Under the pieces are notes generated by a model, which searched no databases, was not told the origin of the DNA, and was given only the letters and a program-made list of their open reading frames with translations. Shown here piece after piece: positions 39,627 through 51,352 of a stretch of 52,892 nucleotides of DNA (position 1 is its first letter; every line of letters begins with the position of its first letter). The DNA is from a virus. A program made the position numbers and the translations under genes. The stretch is taken from IMG/VR virus record IMGVR_UViG_3300003937_000378, positions 1-52,892 of that record; one strand, given 5' to 3'.

Positions 39627-40135
39627 GAGAACACCTCCGTTTTCCAGCCGCCGCCTGGGGCACGCTGGACTGCCAGGAATCGAAACGGGTACATCTCCGC
39701 GGCCACCTTCACCTTCACGCGGGCGTCTTCCTCCCAAAAGCCCTTCACCTCGTGGGCCTCCAAGTCACCAGCGGCCGTCATCACGAAGAAGTCGATGGTG
39801 AGGTGAGTCTTTTCGGCCAACTTCAGCTTCACGGACTCGAACCGGAACCATGCGATCTCGCCGGCGGCCAGCTGCAGCGCCAGATGCGCGGCATAGGCTT
39901 CTTCGGTCTTGTTCATCTCCCCGGGCACGTGCCGCGGCCTCCCGCGTGCGACCTTGCCGGCGGCGTTTCCGCTGCCAGAGGGCTGACCAGCAGACGGCGG
40001 ACGGTAGGCGCGCGGCGCGGCCGGTGCTGGCCCGGCTGCCGGCGCACTGGCCTGCACGAGGCGGCGCATGCCTTCCGGCATGTCCTGCACGGTTGCGTAG
40101 CGCAGGGAGCGGCTGGATGTCTTCTTCGGCGGCAT
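39623..40135 (-). CDS. DUF1064-like PD-(D/E)XK endonuclease
   Basis: From ATG 40135 the protein has 170 residues. The DUF1064 pattern is clear: MNKTEEAYAAHLALQLAAGEI (74-94), DFFV with D115, and HEVKG with E129 and K131, followed by a helix with AEMYPFRFLAV. A basic Pro-rich leader of 70 residues precedes. Such phage nucleases are thought to resolve branched DNA. It overlaps the neighbouring genes by 4 bases each side. Confidence 0.75.
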   Translation of the reverse strand: MPPKKTSSRSLRYATVQDMPEGMRRLVQASAPAAGPAPAAPRAYRPPSAGQPSGSGNAAGKVARGRPRHVPGEMNKTEEAYAAHLALQLAAGEIAWFRFESVKLKLAEKTHLTIDFFVMTAAGDLEAHEVKGFWEEDARVKVKVAAEMYPFRFLAVQRAPGGGWKTEVFS

Positions 40136-40665
40136 CAGACAGATGCCTCCATAGCGCTCCACACTCGCATTGCGCGCTGCCTGAATGCGTCGAACTCCTG
40201 CCGGGCGCGTTGCTGCGCGGCCTGGTGCTCGCGGTCCATCTGCTCAAGCATGCAGTCGAATTCAACGTTCAGCAGTGCCATCAGCTGTTCCATGGACAAC
40301 CCGCCGCGCGTGCGCTGCCCCGATGGTGGCGCGAGCATTGGCATGGCCAGCTGCTGCTGACCCGAGGGCGGCGCCGGCGCACGCTCCACGCGGCCGGCCA
40401 CGGTCGCAGCCCACGTCGCCACCGGCCGCCCATCGCGGCCGCTGTCGCGGTTCTCGCACCTGCGCACCAGGCCATCACCGTCCAGCTCTCGCAAAAGGCC
40501 AGCCACGGCGGCCGTGCTCAGCAGCATCACCTCGCGTGGCGCGCCGGACTCGAGCGCGGCGTTCCCCATCAGCTCCAAGGCCTCCGCTGCAGTGCTCTCG
40601 CCGTGGATGCCCAAGCAGAACAGCAGCAGCTGCCGCTGGTAGGCGCGGATTTCAGCTGGCTCCAT
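40135..40665 (-). CDS. Hypothetical early protein with a winged-helix-like start (176 aa)
   Basis: A 176-residue protein whose first 90 residues (MEPAEIRAYQRQLLLFCLGIHGES, then LLSTAAVAGLLRELDGDGLVRRCENRDSGRDGRPVATW) look like a winged helix reading a one-layer HTH. The rest is coiled and Gln/Arg-rich. It overlaps the P-like gene by 14 bases. A role in replication or control is likely from context only. Confidence 0.55.
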   Translation of the reverse strand: MEPAEIRAYQRQLLLFCLGIHGESTAAEALELMGNAALESGAPREVMLLSTAAVAGLLRELDGDGLVRRCENRDSGRDGRPVATWAATVAGRVERAPAPPSGQQQLAMPMLAPPSGQRTRGGLSMEQLMALLNVEFDCMLEQMDREHQAAQQRARQEFDAFRQRAMRVWSAMEASV

Positions 40666-43960: not shown

Positions 43961-44668
43961 ATGACTACAGCCCTCGCTACCCGCCTGAAGCGCGCACGAA
44001 CTGAGTGCGGCATTACCGAACCCGCTGATGCCGCGCGTCGTGCTGGCATCACCGCATCAGCTCTGTACCAGCTGGAGGACGGCAAGACGAAGTCGCTCAG
44101 CGGCGAGACGGCGGTGAAGCTGGCCCGTGTCTACAAGCCTTTTCGGGTCGAATGGCTGATCACTGGTGAGCTCCCTGAGCGCTGGGACGAGTCTCATGGG
44201 TCCTCGATATCAGACGGTGAGACACCCGCTGGCTATGTTCGCCTTCGAGTAATGGAAGGCGAGGCTTCAGGGGGCTTTGGCGCAATGAATCAGGATTACC
44301 CGGATGTGGTCCGGGAGCTCGACATCGCGGAGTGGCAGGTTCGCCAACAGCTGGGCTTCGTGCCCGAGGGTGACCGCGTGCGCCTGGTGACCGTGCGCGG
44401 GGACTCGATGTATCCCGACATCAAGAATGGCGACGTGGTGTTCGTGGACGTCGCCAAGGACTACTTCGACGGCGATGGCCTGTATCTGATCAATCTGCAT
44501 GGGCTGACCTACGTCAAACGCCTGCAGCTGCTGCGGGATGGCCTGCACGTCATCAGCACCAACCGGAAGTACCTCAGCGAGGTAGTTCCTCCCCACGAGG
44601 CTGATCAGCTGCACGTGGGTGGCAAGATTTTGGGCCTGGCGCTGCTGCGCAGCGCGCAGGAAGTCTGA
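43961..44668 (+). CDS. cI: CI repressor (HTH plus S24 peptidase-like domain)
   Basis: A 235-residue protein: an HTH at about 5-60 (LKRARTECGI, AARRAGITASALYQLEDGK) and a LexA-like domain with S149 in RGDSMYP and K186 in YVKRLQL. The canonical Ala-Gly cleavage pair is missing at the expected distance before the serine. Only SG at 103-104 is near, so SOS cleavage may be weak or use another bond. ATG is 11 bases after a TAATAA -10-like box, so the mRNA may be leaderless as in lambda PRM. It ends 3 bases before the convergent exported protein. Confidence 0.92.
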   Translation: MTTALATRLKRARTECGITEPADAARRAGITASALYQLEDGKTKSLSGETAVKLARVYKPFRVEWLITGELPERWDESHGSSISDGETPAGYVRLRVMEGEASGGFGAMNQDYPDVVRELDIAEWQVRQQLGFVPEGDRVRLVTVRGDSMYPDIKNGDVVFVDVAKDYFDGDGLYLINLHGLTYVKRLQLLRDGLHVISTNRKYLSEVVPPHEADQLHVGGKILGLALLRSAQEV

Positions 44669-47188: not shown

Positions 47189-47395
47189 ATGGACCTCCGC
47201 AACCAGCTCGACATCTTCGACCACGACCCAGCCCGCCTGGCCAAGGCCAACCGCGCCGCCGCCGAGCACGCACTGACCGATCCGTTCTTCTCCGCGAAGG
47301 TCCGTCAGGACCGCCACGACTACTACATCGCCGAAGCCGAACGCCTTGAGCGCTTGGCAGCCATGGCCGAGAAGCCGGCCACCACCGCAGCCTGA
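47189..47395 (+). CDS. Small protein with an N-terminal QLDIF clamp-binding-like peptide (68 aa)
   Basis: From ATG 47189 the product is 68 residues, MDLRNQLDIFDHDPARLAKANRAA and so on. Q6-L7-D8-I9-F10 fits the QLxLF/QLxIF peptide by which many proteins bind the beta sliding clamp of DNA polymerase III. The rest is one helix (EHALTDPFFSAKVRQDRHDYYIAEAERLERLAAM). An ATG at 47150 would overlap the previous gene. The role is inferred from the peptide only. Confidence 0.5.
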   Translation: MDLRNQLDIFDHDPARLAKANRAAAEHALTDPFFSAKVRQDRHDYYIAEAERLERLAAMAEKPATTAA

Positions 47396-47405
47396 GATCT
47401 CCCGA

Positions 47406-47858
47406 ATGAAACAGCCTCAGCCCAGCGAAGCCAAATCTTCAACTCCGATCCCCGACAGCGCGATTGAAGCGTTCCGCGCTGCCTACGCCACCCACGGCGC
47501 CCAGAAGGGCTACGCCGAGGCCATCCGCGCCGGCCTCGCCGCCGCGGCGCCACTGATCAGCCATGACGCCATGCTCTCGCTCGAGCAGGATGCGCAGGCC
47601 TACCTGGTGCGCCAACTGGACATTGCCCTGAATGGTGAAGCCGCCGCAGCGCGCGAGCCGGTGCTGGGTGATCTTCTAAGCCAGTGCCAGGACGAGGTTC
47701 GCCGCCGCAGCGGCCCAGTTCTAACCACGCTTCCGATTGGCGTGCAGCACCACCTACGGCAGGTGTTCAGCGATATGGCCGATCGCGCGCGCCTGCTGTC
47801 CGACGCCGCCGTGCGTGAAGTTGTGCTGATGGGCACTACGGAGGTGCGCTGTGGCTGA
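47406..47858 (+). CDS. Hypothetical helical protein (150 aa)
   Basis: From ATG 47406, 150 residues, mostly helical (SAIEAFRAAYATHGAQKGYAEAIRAGLAAAAPLI), ending with a VREVVLMGTTEVRCG tail. It is coupled with the following plus-strand start region. No domain is known by eye. Confidence 0.6.
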   Translation: MKQPQPSEAKSSTPIPDSAIEAFRAAYATHGAQKGYAEAIRAGLAAAAPLISHDAMLSLEQDAQAYLVRQLDIALNGEAAAAREPVLGDLLSQCQDEVRRRSGPVLTTLPIGVQHHLRQVFSDMADRARLLSDAAVREVVLMGTTEVRCG

Positions 47859-47862
47859 TCAC

Positions 47863-48099
47863 TCAGTCCAGGTCCAACGGATGAGCTCGCGCGTAGTCAG
47901 CCCCCAGGCCTTCGGCGATTCTCTCGGCCTCATCCTGGCTTGCGTGGTGCGCCATCGTGTGATCACGGAACGCAGGCGCGTCATCACCCTCGCGCCAGAC
48001 CTCAACTTCCGCGCGCCAGAACGGCAGCGGTTGGCCCTCTGCGATGTACTGGGAGTCGATGTCCAGATGCCATCCGGAAACCAATCGGGTGAAAGGCAT
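47863..48099 (-). CDS. Antisense small protein in the plus operon (78 aa)
   Basis: A 78-residue minus-strand product from ATG 48099 with an unusually protein-like sequence: MPFTRLVSGWHLDIDSQYIAEGQPLPFWRAEVEVW, then TMAHHASQDEAERIAEGLGADYARAHPLDLD. It sits opposite the gap in the plus operon between 47858 and 48098. Its ATG shares the CATG bases with the downstream plus gene start. A competing plus-strand frame with GTG at 47851 and GGAGG looks less protein-like. Confidence 0.5.
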   Translation of the reverse strand: MPFTRLVSGWHLDIDSQYIAEGQPLPFWRAEVEVWREGDDAPAFRDHTMAHHASQDEAERIAEGLGADYARAHPLDLD

Positions 48100-48883
48100 G
48101 GCTAAGCGTCCGATACTGACGAATGGAACCATCGTACGCGCTTCCCTGGCGGACGTGCAGCCCGGTGGGAGGGTGAGGCTGGAGGATCATCGCTCCGACC
48201 TGGTGCCGGGCATCGTGCGCTGTGCGAAGTGCCAGTTCCAGCTTGTGCGGTCGAATCTCAACATGCACGACGGAACCGTGACCGCTGGCGACAGCAAGAC
48301 TGAGCCGTGCCCGAATGGCTGCGGCCCGCTCTGGCCCGTAACGTGGGAAACGTGGGCGCGCGAAGGCTGGGCCGAGGCCGAACGACTGCACCTGGAGAAT
48401 GCCGCCCTCTCTGCCCAGCCCTCCCCGGGTGGTCAGGGGGATGCGCTTTTGGAATCGCTGGTCGCCCGGTGGCGCAACCACGCCGAGGAGATCGGAGTCA
48501 GCGACAACTTGCTGTGCCAGAAGATCGCGAACTGCACGATGCGACACGCGGCCGAACTGCAGGCCGCCCTCGCCGCCCGCCAGCCGGTGGGGGAGCCGGT
48601 GGCTTGGTACTACGGTTTCTCTGACACCGGCGAGGCCGGGCCGGTCACATTCGGCGGGAACCCTGGCGCGGAAGCAATCGCATGGGCAGAGCGCCACGGT
48701 CACACGCTGCACTACCTCTACGCCGCCCCGCCCGCGAAGCAGCCCGCGAAGGCCGTGGACCTGGGTGCGGTGCGCGAGGCCGTCCGCAAAGCATGGCAAA
48801 AATGCGCCGCTGGCGAGAGTGTCGACCTTCAGTTCGGCACGCTGTTGGCCCTGATCGACGGCCAGGCGGTGGGCAATGGCTAA
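48098..48883 (+). CDS. Hypothetical protein with zinc-ribbon-like motif (261 aa)
   Basis: From ATG 48098, AAAGG before it, the protein has 261 residues. C42 and C45 in RCAKCQF with C71 and C75 in PCPNGCGPLWP make a possible zinc ribbon near the start. The C-terminal half (AWYYGFSDTGEAGPVTFGGNPGAEAIAWAERHGHTLHYLY) resembles the Ea22-like early proteins of lambdoid phages. The exact function is unknown. Confidence 0.65.
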   Translation: MAKRPILTNGTIVRASLADVQPGGRVRLEDHRSDLVPGIVRCAKCQFQLVRSNLNMHDGTVTAGDSKTEPCPNGCGPLWPVTWETWAREGWAEAERLHLENAALSAQPSPGGQGDALLESLVARWRNHAEEIGVSDNLLCQKIANCTMRHAAELQAALAARQPVGEPVAWYYGFSDTGEAGPVTFGGNPGAEAIAWAERHGHTLHYLYAAPPAKQPAKAVDLGAVREAVRKAWQKCAAGESVDLQFGTLLALIDGQAVGNG

Positions 48884-49238
48884 CCAGACGACTGGCGGCG
48901 CTCTGCCGGATGTCGAGCTGCAGATCCTTCGCCACGCCCTGGGCGTCGGCGAAGGCGGCTTGGAGCGCAGCTACCGCAGTCACTTCGTCACCGGCCCCGG
49001 CGGCGCCGACCACCAGTACTGCATGGCGCTGGTCGCTCGCGGGTTCATGGTTCGGCGAGCGGGCAACGCGATCACCGGCGGCAGCGACCTGTTCAACGTC
49101 ACCCAGGCCGGCCGCGCAGCGGTGCAGGAGCACACTCCACCACAGCCGAAACTGACCAGGTCGCAGCAGCGCTACCAGCAGTTCCTGCGCTACGACGGTG
49201 GCGTGACGTTCGGCGAGTATCTGCGGGGCTGGCGATGA
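48876..49238 (+). CDS. Hypothetical protein, winged-helix-like (120 aa)
   Basis: A 120-residue protein. The first 60 residues read as a winged-helix-like fold (VELQILRHALGVGEG, then YCMALVARGFMVRRAGNAI), ending with a helical QQRYQQFLRYDGG tail. It overlaps the previous gene by 8 bases and the next by 4. Possible transcription regulator. Unconfirmed. Confidence 0.55.
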   Translation: MANQTTGGALPDVELQILRHALGVGEGGLERSYRSHFVTGPGGADHQYCMALVARGFMVRRAGNAITGGSDLFNVTQAGRAAVQEHTPPQPKLTRSQQRYQQFLRYDGGVTFGEYLRGWR

Positions 49239-49429
49239 AGGCGATCACCACCAACACGTCGGCGCTTATGGCTGACCAGCTGCTGCTGTTTCCGATCATG
49301 ACGTTCGATGTTGAGGACGCCATCCAGAAGATCCTGACGCTGCGCCGGAAGTACTGCTGCAGCGGTCATGCCGGCGAAGACATTGAGCTTATCCGGGCCG
49401 CATTGATGGAGGAGCACGGCCATGGCTGA
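49235..49429 (+). CDS. Small protein with QLLLF clamp-binding-like peptide (64 aa)
   Basis: A 64-residue protein with Q15-L-L-L-F19 in MADQLLLFPIM near the N-terminus, a match to the QLxLF clamp-binding peptide. The remainder is a helix-turn pair (FDVEDAIQKILTLRRKY, then EDIELIRAALMEEHG). The start is ATG 49235 with GGGG in reach. ATG 49268 is possible. Overlaps both neighbours. Confidence 0.5.
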   Translation: MKAITTNTSALMADQLLLFPIMTFDVEDAIQKILTLRRKYCCSGHAGEDIELIRAALMEEHGHG

Positions 49430-50165
49430 CCAGCTGCTCACCGCTGCGCCATGGAAAGGGAAAGGCGCCATCGATCAAGATCTGGCCCTCAAGGTCGCCG
49501 ACGGCATTGTTTCGCGGAGACTGGTTAAGGGGTGGTCGCGTCAAGCCATCCTATCAAGCATCGAGGGAGGTCCGTCGCCATGCGGGCGTGCGTTCTATTT
49601 GATGCGCGGTGGCGTCATCGTCGTCGCCCTCTTCCCGATGACGCAGCTGAGCGATATGAACGGTCGCGGGTACTGGTACTCAATCCGCGACCTGTTCCCG
49701 CCGCTTCCCGATCGCACCCATGCAGGTACCGACGATCTGCAGCCGTTCCAGGTCGGTGACAAGGTCTGGGCTTGGTACAAGGACGAGCCCAGGGCTGATT
49801 ATGGCCAACCCGATCAGCCGGGCGACGACACACGCTGGAGTCGGTGCTTTCCTCTGTTCACCGTCAAGAGCGTGACGGGTCCACACCTCGAACCGGCAAA
49901 GTTCGCCGGTCGATCGCACTACCAGGTGCAGCTCAGGTATCGCGAAGGGCCGCCCGCCACCCACTACGACGCGGGCTACCACGACGTTTGCCCGATCAAG
50001 GGGCGTCCCTGGCAGATGCGCGGAGACGGCGACTACCTGCAGTTGGTGCACCGTGCACCGCCTGCGGCAAAGCCACGCCGTGCTGCTGCGGTGCCACCGC
50101 CCACCCCCACCCTGCCGCCGCCGTTGCCGTTGCCGTTGCCGGCCCAACTGGACCTGTTCGCATGA
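49422..50165 (+). CDS. Hypothetical early protein ending in a QLDLF clamp-binding-like peptide (247 aa)
   Basis: A 247-residue protein. Residues 1-100 are an alpha/beta unit (RGGVIVVALFPMTQLSDMNGRGYWYSIRDL). Residues 106-200 look like a small SH3-like domain (FQVGDKVWAWYKDEPR, then YQVQLRYREG). A Pro-rich linker follows (VPPPTPTLPPPLPLPLP) and ends with A-QLDLFA, the consensus clamp-binding peptide at the extreme C-terminus. This is the usual design for partners of the sliding clamp. It precedes the methyltransferase and overlaps it by 4 bases. Confidence 0.55.
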   Translation: MADQLLTAAPWKGKGAIDQDLALKVADGIVSRRLVKGWSRQAILSSIEGGPSPCGRAFYLMRGGVIVVALFPMTQLSDMNGRGYWYSIRDLFPPLPDRTHAGTDDLQPFQVGDKVWAWYKDEPRADYGQPDQPGDDTRWSRCFPLFTVKSVTGPHLEPAKFAGRSHYQVQLRYREGPPATHYDAGYHDVCPIKGRPWQMRGDGDYLQLVHRAPPAAKPRRAAAVPPPTPTLPPPLPLPLPAQLDLFA

Positions 50166-51352
50166 TCCACATCGGAGACTGCCTGAAAGTGATGCGCGGC
50201 ATGGCCGACAACTCAGTTGATGCCGTCGTGACCGATCCACCCTACGGCCTGTCGTTTATGGGCAAGCGCTGGGATTACGACGTACCCAGCACCGAGATTT
50301 GGGCCGAGTGCCTGCGCGTGTTGAAGCCAGGCGGCCACCTGCTGGCGTTCGCCGGCACACGTACGCAGCACCGCATGGCAGTGCGAATTGAGGATGCTGG
50401 CTTCGAGATCCGCGACATGATCGCGTGGGTCTACGGCAGCGGTTTCCCAAAGTCGCACAACGGTGCTTGGGGCGGTACCGCTCTGAAGCCAGCGCTCGAA
50501 CCGATCACCGTCGCCCGCAAGCCTCTTACAGGTACGGTGGCAGCCAACTGGCATCAGCATGGCACCGGTGGGCTCAACATCGACTCTTGCCGGATCGAGA
50601 CGATGGACAAGCTCGGCGGCGGCGACCAATCGGCCGCGCCGAAGATTGCTTCCGATGGTTGGCACCGGCCATGGATGGAGGACGAGCAGGCAAAAGCCGC
50701 ACATGCTGACCGTTGCAACACCAACGTAGCGAAGGCGGAAGCGCTGGGTCGCTGGCCTGCTAACCTGATCCACGATGGCAGCGAGGAAGTACTCGCGGCA
50801 TTCCCTGCAGCGCCGGGACAGAAAGCGGACCTGAGCGATGATGGGGAAAGCGCCCGATTCTCGGTCGTCTACGACGGCGGGCCCCTCCCGCGAGGCGGCG
50901 AAGCGAGTTCGAACAGCGTCAACGATGGAGCGGTGGGCTTCAAGATGCGTCCTGGTGCACGCCGTTTGGATAGCGGCAGCGCTGCCCGGTTCTTCTACTG
51001 CGCCAAGGCAACGCGTGAAGACCGCAACGACGGCCTCGATTCTGGCCCGGTGCCAGCAGTCTCGGCTGGCGCAACGATGCGCGACCGCGAGACTGCCAAC
51101 TGGCCGGCGCGGAACGGCAACCACCACCCCACCGTGAAGCCGACTGACCTCATGCGCTACCTGTGCCGGCTTGTCACTCCTGCCGGCGGCATGGTGCTGG
51201 ACCCGTTCATGGGTAGCGGCAGCACCGGCAAAGCTGCCGTTCTCGAGGGCTTCCAGTTCATCGGCATCGAGCTGGACCCCGCCTATGCCGCAATCGCCGA
51301 GGCGCGCATCCGGGTCGCACAGCCTGGCCTTTCATTTGGAGACGTCGCATGA
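50162..51352 (+). CDS. Beta-class DNA N4/N6 methyltransferase
   Basis: From ATG 50162 it has 396 residues. Motif IV TDPPYGL (24-30) comes first and motif I DPFMGSGSTG (347-356) near the end, the order of beta-class enzymes such as CcrM and many phage methylases. SVDAVV before motif IV and PTVKPTDLMRYL after the middle region fit. It modifies adenine N6 or cytosine N4 in phage DNA. No restriction enzyme accompanies it, so it is probably a protective orphan. It overlaps the upstream gene. Confidence 0.9.
   Translation: MIHIGDCLKVMRGMADNSVDAVVTDPPYGLSFMGKRWDYDVPSTEIWAECLRVLKPGGHLLAFAGTRTQHRMAVRIEDAGFEIRDMIAWVYGSGFPKSHNGAWGGTALKPALEPITVARKPLTGTVAANWHQHGTGGLNIDSCRIETMDKLGGGDQSAAPKIASDGWHRPWMEDEQAKAAHADRCNTNVAKAEALGRWPANLIHDGSEEVLAAFPAAPGQKADLSDDGESARFSVVYDGGPLPRGGEASSNSVNDGAVGFKMRPGARRLDSGSAARFFYCAKATREDRNDGLDSGPVPAVSAGATMRDRETANWPARNGNHHPTVKPTDLMRYLCRLVTPAGGMVLDPFMGSGSTGKAAVLEGFQFIGIELDPAYAAIAEARIRVAQPGLSFGDVA

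Follow-up and report, generated by a model that had tools for sequence, protein, structure and literature searches.

Terminal clamp-binding-type peptides on small early proteins of a lambda-like prophage and its Stenotrophomonas relatives

Clamp-type peptides in the early operon

The linear IMG/VR virus record IMGVR_UViG_3300003937_000378, analysed over its full 52,892 nt (the window), reads as a lambda-like prophage. Its rightward plus-strand operon (45.4-52.9 kb; 17 genes, 2,425 amino acids) encodes, all in frame, three pentapeptides of the type that binds the bacterial DNA polymerase III beta clamp (DnaN): QLDIF (47204-47218), QLLLF (49277-49291) and QLDLF (50145-50159). QLDIF occupies residues 6-10 of a 68-residue protein (47189-47395), QLDLF occupies residues 242-246 of a 247-residue protein (49422-50165) and is followed by a single Ala, and QLLLF, a weaker candidate, falls at residues 15-19 of a 64-residue open reading frame (ORF; 49235-49429). 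With their flanking residues, the candidate peptides are PAQLDLFA for QLDLF, MDLRNQLDIFDHD for QLDIF and MADQLLLFP for QLLLF. QLDLF and QLLLF fit the clamp rule Q-aliphatic-x-[L/M]-[F/L] exactly, whereas QLDIF, with Ile at position 4, comes near to it. A preliminary description of this DNA had noted the three peptides and held that three in one operon exceed chance, and both statements are borne out.

For the pattern QLx[LI]F, 0.028 occurrences were expected in the operon and three were observed (Poisson P = 3.5e-6, or about 4e-9 when only terminal positions are counted), and 20,000 within-protein shuffles of the operon genes never yielded more than two. The genome-wide background count that the preliminary description had proposed, made on crude gene calls over the whole window (16,178 amino acids), gave 0.22 expected occurrences and one hit beyond the three. 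This additional QLLLF lies near the N-terminus of a 176-residue minus-strand protein (40135-40665) beside the P-like helicase loader; we dropped it as a candidate, since it is probably part of a helix in a helix-turn-helix-like protein. The same protein also contains QQLAMPM within a Pro-rich linker. Across ORFs of the window and 65 loci, QL.[LI]F was terminal in 11 clusters compared with a mean of 1.2 over 60 letter permutations, a ratio that is indicative only because some of the clusters are split pieces of one family.

The operon layout corresponds to that of the lambda PL operon, and the operon is presumably PL. The minus strand carries Cro-like, CII-like, DUF1376 O-like and P-like helicase-loader genes, followed by an antirepressor, an SNF2 helicase and late genes, and an S24 repressor is encoded on the plus strand at 43961. 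These initiation proteins are present, and no polymerase gene was seen in the stretch of the window that was scanned. Every named genome with the 68-residue protein is from Stenotrophomonas, barring one uncultured bin. The Stenotrophomonas clamp (L297) matches PDB entry 7RZM over its full length, and in a comparison that shifted the first half of the clamp by one residue, the pocket positions given in PMC11139829 are conserved except for Ala at 246, Asn at 344 and Leu at 364. From its sequence, the host clamp thus has the peptide-binding pocket in largely conserved form.

The C-terminal tail and the unrelated bodies that carry it

Alignment and an AlphaFold model divide the 247-residue protein into an N-terminal domain, which the alignment also finds in stand-alone relatives, a beta-rich C-terminal half, a Pro/Ala linker and the terminal QLDLFA. 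The model is of low confidence, and the predicted local distance difference test (pLDDT) score stays below 50 over residues 215-247. Homologues of the tail proteins were sought with the bodies only, the tails having been removed, which gave 102 distinct proteins. All but two of them end in Qxx[LM]Fx; the regular expression required Q and F, and the only two proteins that missed it have disrupted frames. Within this set, the codons for Gln and Phe of the tail show silent changes only; L, M, P, Q, R or G occur at position 2, D or E almost without exception at position 3, and nothing but L or M at position 4, and the last residue is free (also V, R, E, G or P). Biochemical work on clamp peptides found Gln to be important, position 2 to be tolerant, position 4 to be Leu or Met and position 5 to be Phe (PMC11139829), and the substitution pattern deduced from the tail sequences matches this published specificity. 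The contrast between positions 2 and 4 does not simply reflect mutational bias, because both have the same main codon (CTG). In loci not selected by the tail, 118 of 118 distinct occurrences of the tail DNA are in frame with the upstream ORF.

Related Stenotrophomonas prophages carry the identical Pro/Ala leash and QLDLFA on differing proteins, so that the tail is shared in a modular fashion. Six kinds of body were distinguished: F1, with the body ARVFLSECRARRHGLGFWFAFNAAQRAR; F2, the type of the window's 247-residue protein, in which an F3-type domain is joined to the beta-rich half; F3, the stand-alone relative of its N-terminal domain, which ends in QLEMFR, QLEMFA or QLELFA; F4, with the body MIAAGFPLARHRLL; F5, with the body EYDRRRLPGAYSQ; and F6, a distant relative of F3. 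Profile comparison related only F3 to F6 (92%) and detected no mutual relationship among F1, F3/F6, F4 and F5; thus at least four unrelated bodies carry the tail, a pattern absent from the preliminary description. Several phages have two consecutive tail genes (L030, L031, L032, L043, L108, L148, L151 and L161). Most C-terminal tails share the codons CAA CTG GAC CTG TTC across unrelated bodies. We therefore rejected an independent origin of all C-terminal tails, which are related by descent or recombination.

In 247 genomes of the host's family, we found eight homologues of F1, whose bodies have in most cases diverged strongly and whose tails read QLELF, QLDLF, QLELGL, QSELF, QGGLF, QGVLW, QRGLF and QADLF. 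The hexameric form QLELGL is known from Pol IV, and QADLF resembles the QADMF of Pol III alpha. A stricter clamp pattern fits four of the eight tails, compared with a mean of 0.23.

The stop codon of the tail gene overlaps the start of the next gene in 127 of 127 cases (ATGA in 124, GTGA in 2 and TTGA in 1). In the window, the overlap (ATGA, within 50159-50170) leads into an N6/N4-type DNA methyltransferase gene on the plus strand (50162-51352; Pfam PF01555, E = 2.6e-32). Elsewhere, this downstream gene is highly variable and encodes apparently three kinds of methyltransferase, phosphosulfate-reductase-like proteins and many unknowns, all named, the window's methyltransferase excepted, by reading the N-terminal sequence. 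The position after the tail looks like a slot for the exchange of accessory genes; the codons common to unrelated bodies would follow from exchange at the tail.

Recombination genes lie close by in more distant phages. In one genome (G004), the F1 gene and the end of a RecT gene overlap; a PD-DEXK nuclease gene precedes RecT, and a homologue of the 68-residue protein is encoded slightly downstream. In Cr-LKS3 and Cy-LDV1, exonuclease and SSB genes precede the homologue of the 68-residue protein, and in Cy-LDV1 these are in turn preceded by Bet. Both protein types thus accompany recombination genes and each other.

QLDIF and QLLLF at the N-termini

The AlphaFold model of the 68-residue protein shows a flexible N-terminus that contains QLDIF (mean pLDDT of 53 over residues 1-10) and a hairpin of two helices (residues 14-29 and 36-61). 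QLDIF and QLDLF are therefore both accessible in the models, in exposed segments of low confidence, and the check for burial in predicted folds that the preliminary description had suggested favors the clamp idea for these two proteins. The helical part of the 68-residue protein weakly matches phrog_29330 (E = 1e-5), as does a lytic-phage relative (E = 6e-6), the motif lying outside the match in each. QLDIF is invariant in 20 of 20 aligned close homologues, but the neighboring DPARLAKANR is equally invariant, and close homologues alone therefore prove little.

The distant relatives are more informative about the site. At the position of QLDIF, phage relatives have QLDLY (Silvergun), NLDLW (SOVA965), NLDIW (Kintu and CUB19) and NLDVF (S72), two phages labeled as cyanobacterial have QQTLAL and QQELAM, and homologues in genomes have QLGLY, QLDLV, QLDLI, QRDLY, QPQLPM and QQPLPL, with QLDSF in one. 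Replacement of Gln by Asn has only a modest effect on the binding of clamp peptides (PMC11139829). The substitutions seen in homologues are thus clamp-like for QLDLF and mostly so for QLDIF. The lytic-phage relatives of the 68-residue family were found only after the E-value had been relaxed, and profile comparison of the two groups then supported homology at 97.7%. QLDIF and the C-terminal tail are encoded by different codons, and the same peptide thus appears to have been taken into use a second time, independently. Two of the phages that share the 68-residue family with Stenotrophomonas phages, L298 (OM373202.1) and L304 (BK059895.1), are labeled Cylindrospermopsis phages; Cr-LKS3 has a methyltransferase in common with Stenotrophomonas phages as well, and the cyanobacterial host label may be doubtful.

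The third peptide is a different case. Three relatives of the QLLLF protein (L062-L064) start at the position that matches an internal ATG at 49268 (relative start MAEQLLLFP), and the real protein is therefore probably 53 rather than 64 residues long (49268-49429, plus strand; N-terminus MADQLLLFP). QLLLF is kept in four of five close sequences, the fifth (L064) having QLLLS, and a search of the collection without the motif for further homologues returned the same four relatives only. We slightly favor the explanation that QLLLF is no clamp motif and came about incidentally, through a start segment (MADQLL) common to this gene and its neighbor: an identical run of 17 bases, ATGGCTGACCAGCTGCT, opens both genes (at 49268 and 49422), one of the five sequences has Ser in place of the final Phe, and the other QLLLF of this phage lies inside the probable helix described above. 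QLLLF nevertheless fits QLxLF at an N-terminus, as QLDIF does, and is retained in the other four sequences. Docking in the DnaN pocket is conceivable, if somewhat doubtful, for this peptide. The 53/64-residue protein may or may not belong with the clamp-tagged proteins. Comparative evidence thus argues strongly for QLDIF and QLDLF among the three peptides that the preliminary description had assigned to the clamp, and only weakly for QLLLF. The MADQLL start segment also opens F1 and F3 genes of other phages.

Proposed docking on the host clamp and other readings of the motifs

Judged from sequence comparison, it is very likely that QLDLFA and QLDIF would dock in the peptide pocket of DnaN. The 68-residue early protein would do so by its N-terminal motif and the 247-residue early protein by its C-terminal motif, held on a disordered Pro/Ala leash. 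The broader proposal, that both proteins dock on DnaN and that the C-terminal motif acts as a modular address tag on swapped bodies, is probable. The tag would serve at least four unrelated small bodies of related Stenotrophomonas prophages, exchanged at one operon position just before an overlapping accessory gene that varies and in many cases encodes a DNA methyltransferase. Clamps at replication forks would then hold varied effector domains at the sites of copying, recombination or modification of phage DNA; that such tethering of small effector domains serves the phage, probably by aiding recombination, replication or modification, is an idea we hold with little more than even confidence. 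Recombination is perhaps what is aided, because relatives lie near RecT or exonuclease and SSB genes. For prophages of Xanthomonadaceae generally, we propose tentatively, and with slightly less than even confidence, that an exchangeable C-terminal clamp tag joined to an overlapping start has had unrelated effectors recombined onto it, which would bring a varying assortment of early proteins to replicating DNA alongside a partner adaptor with an N-terminal motif. The preliminary description had also suggested recruitment of host polymerase, which is not supported in that form, since a motif of this kind attaches to the clamp and not to the polymerase.

Several observations weigh against this proposal. 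Pfam, NCBIfam, PADLOC and PHROGs name none of the bodies, the only match being phrog_29330, which has no function assigned. Most of the C-terminal tails, with their shared codons, are not separate inventions. Some relatives depart from the best motif (NLDIW, NLDVF and QLDSF at the N-terminal site, and QPDLF in a few tails). A loose clamp pattern fits all eight F1 tails (shuffle mean 0.53, maximum 4 in 5,000) and 13 of 18 distant N-terminal sequences (shuffle mean 1.08, maximum 7), but it was written after the distant sequences had been seen, and the contrast is optimistic. 

Foldseek found no significant match in the PDB for the model of either protein; the poor 247-residue model gave chance-level hits, some of them to sliding clamps, and these were disregarded. 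A tblastn search with the three proteins and members of the tail families gave no match among annotated phages at strict E-values. A search of the open-access literature on phage clamp motifs, on Stenotrophomonas prophages and clamps, and on RecT and clamps brought up no description of such a system, subscription papers lying outside its scope.

If the motifs do bind the clamp, competition could itself be their purpose, the phage benefiting from slowed host replication, translesion synthesis, mismatch repair or Hda-dependent DnaA control. QLDLF is the strongest known clamp peptide, overexpression of MGPRQLDLF inhibits the growth of E. coli (PMC11139829), and some tail proteins hardly exceed a short helical body plus the motif. 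A strong block would, however, harm a phage that seems to depend on host replication, as its O-like and P-like proteins and the lack of a polymerase in the scanned stretch suggest, and variable bodies on a constant tag point to a function of the body; we consider this explanation unlikely. The block of host replication raised by the preliminary description is thus possible but less likely as the main role, because the phage probably needs the host clamp itself. The precedent from phages of Gram-positive hosts cited with it does not transfer: the phage protein Twort gp168, for which action on DnaN has likewise been proposed, sits in the DNA channel of the clamp and not in the peptide pocket (PMC11139829).

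Conservation of the tail might instead operate on the DNA, as a recombination boundary of the accessory slot combined with the ribosome-binding region and overlapping start of the next gene. The stop/start overlap seen in every case examined, the variety of the gene that follows and the codons common to unrelated bodies would all fit, yet changes at Gln and Phe are silent only, and the two CTG positions differ in tolerance as clamp chemistry predicts. Moreover, the motif never falls out of frame, hexameric and divergent versions exist elsewhere, and the N-terminal motif has no overlapping start, which together make a role at the DNA level very unlikely. The endings of LFA tails resemble the LAA endings of ssrA, and in most tails a hydrophobic pair is followed by a small final residue, as would suit a protease-recognition tail; but the last residue is also V, R, E, G or P, while the Gln five residues before it never varies, and we give this explanation hardly any credence.

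The proposed docking on DnaN has parallels in known systems. Known clamp-motif proteins, including Hda with its N-terminal motif, also present a QLxLF or QLxLxF peptide at a disordered terminus (PMC11139829), but they have enzymatic or AAA+ domains, whereas here one tail is found on unrelated bodies of small unannotated phage proteins. A factor like Hda in regulatory inactivation of DnaA (RIDA) has an AAA+ domain after its N-terminal motif; the 68-residue protein has a helical hairpin instead and no Pfam match. Insertion-sequence transposases of unrelated families bind the beta clamp through a short motif (PMC4549789) and are likewise mobile-element proteins using the host clamp, but the proteins described here have no transposase domain, and their motif lies in the exchange slot of a prophage early operon. 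If the proposal is correct, a short linear motif, and not a fold, would be the conserved unit of a fast-changing phage gene slot, a terminal QLxLF on a small protein of otherwise no annotation would be a simple rule by which many phage proteins could be assigned to the replication fork, and these peptides would be natural ligands of the clamp of a bacterium for which a clamp structure is solved (7RZM).

The methyltransferase of the window itself ends in AQPGLSFGDVA, and homologues have QPGLSL (L115) and QPGLAL (L141), which by sequence would fit a weak hexameric clamp motif. On another viral contig (L178), QLDLFA forms the end of one methyltransferase, and QMTIF is found near the end of a second methyltransferase-like ORF.

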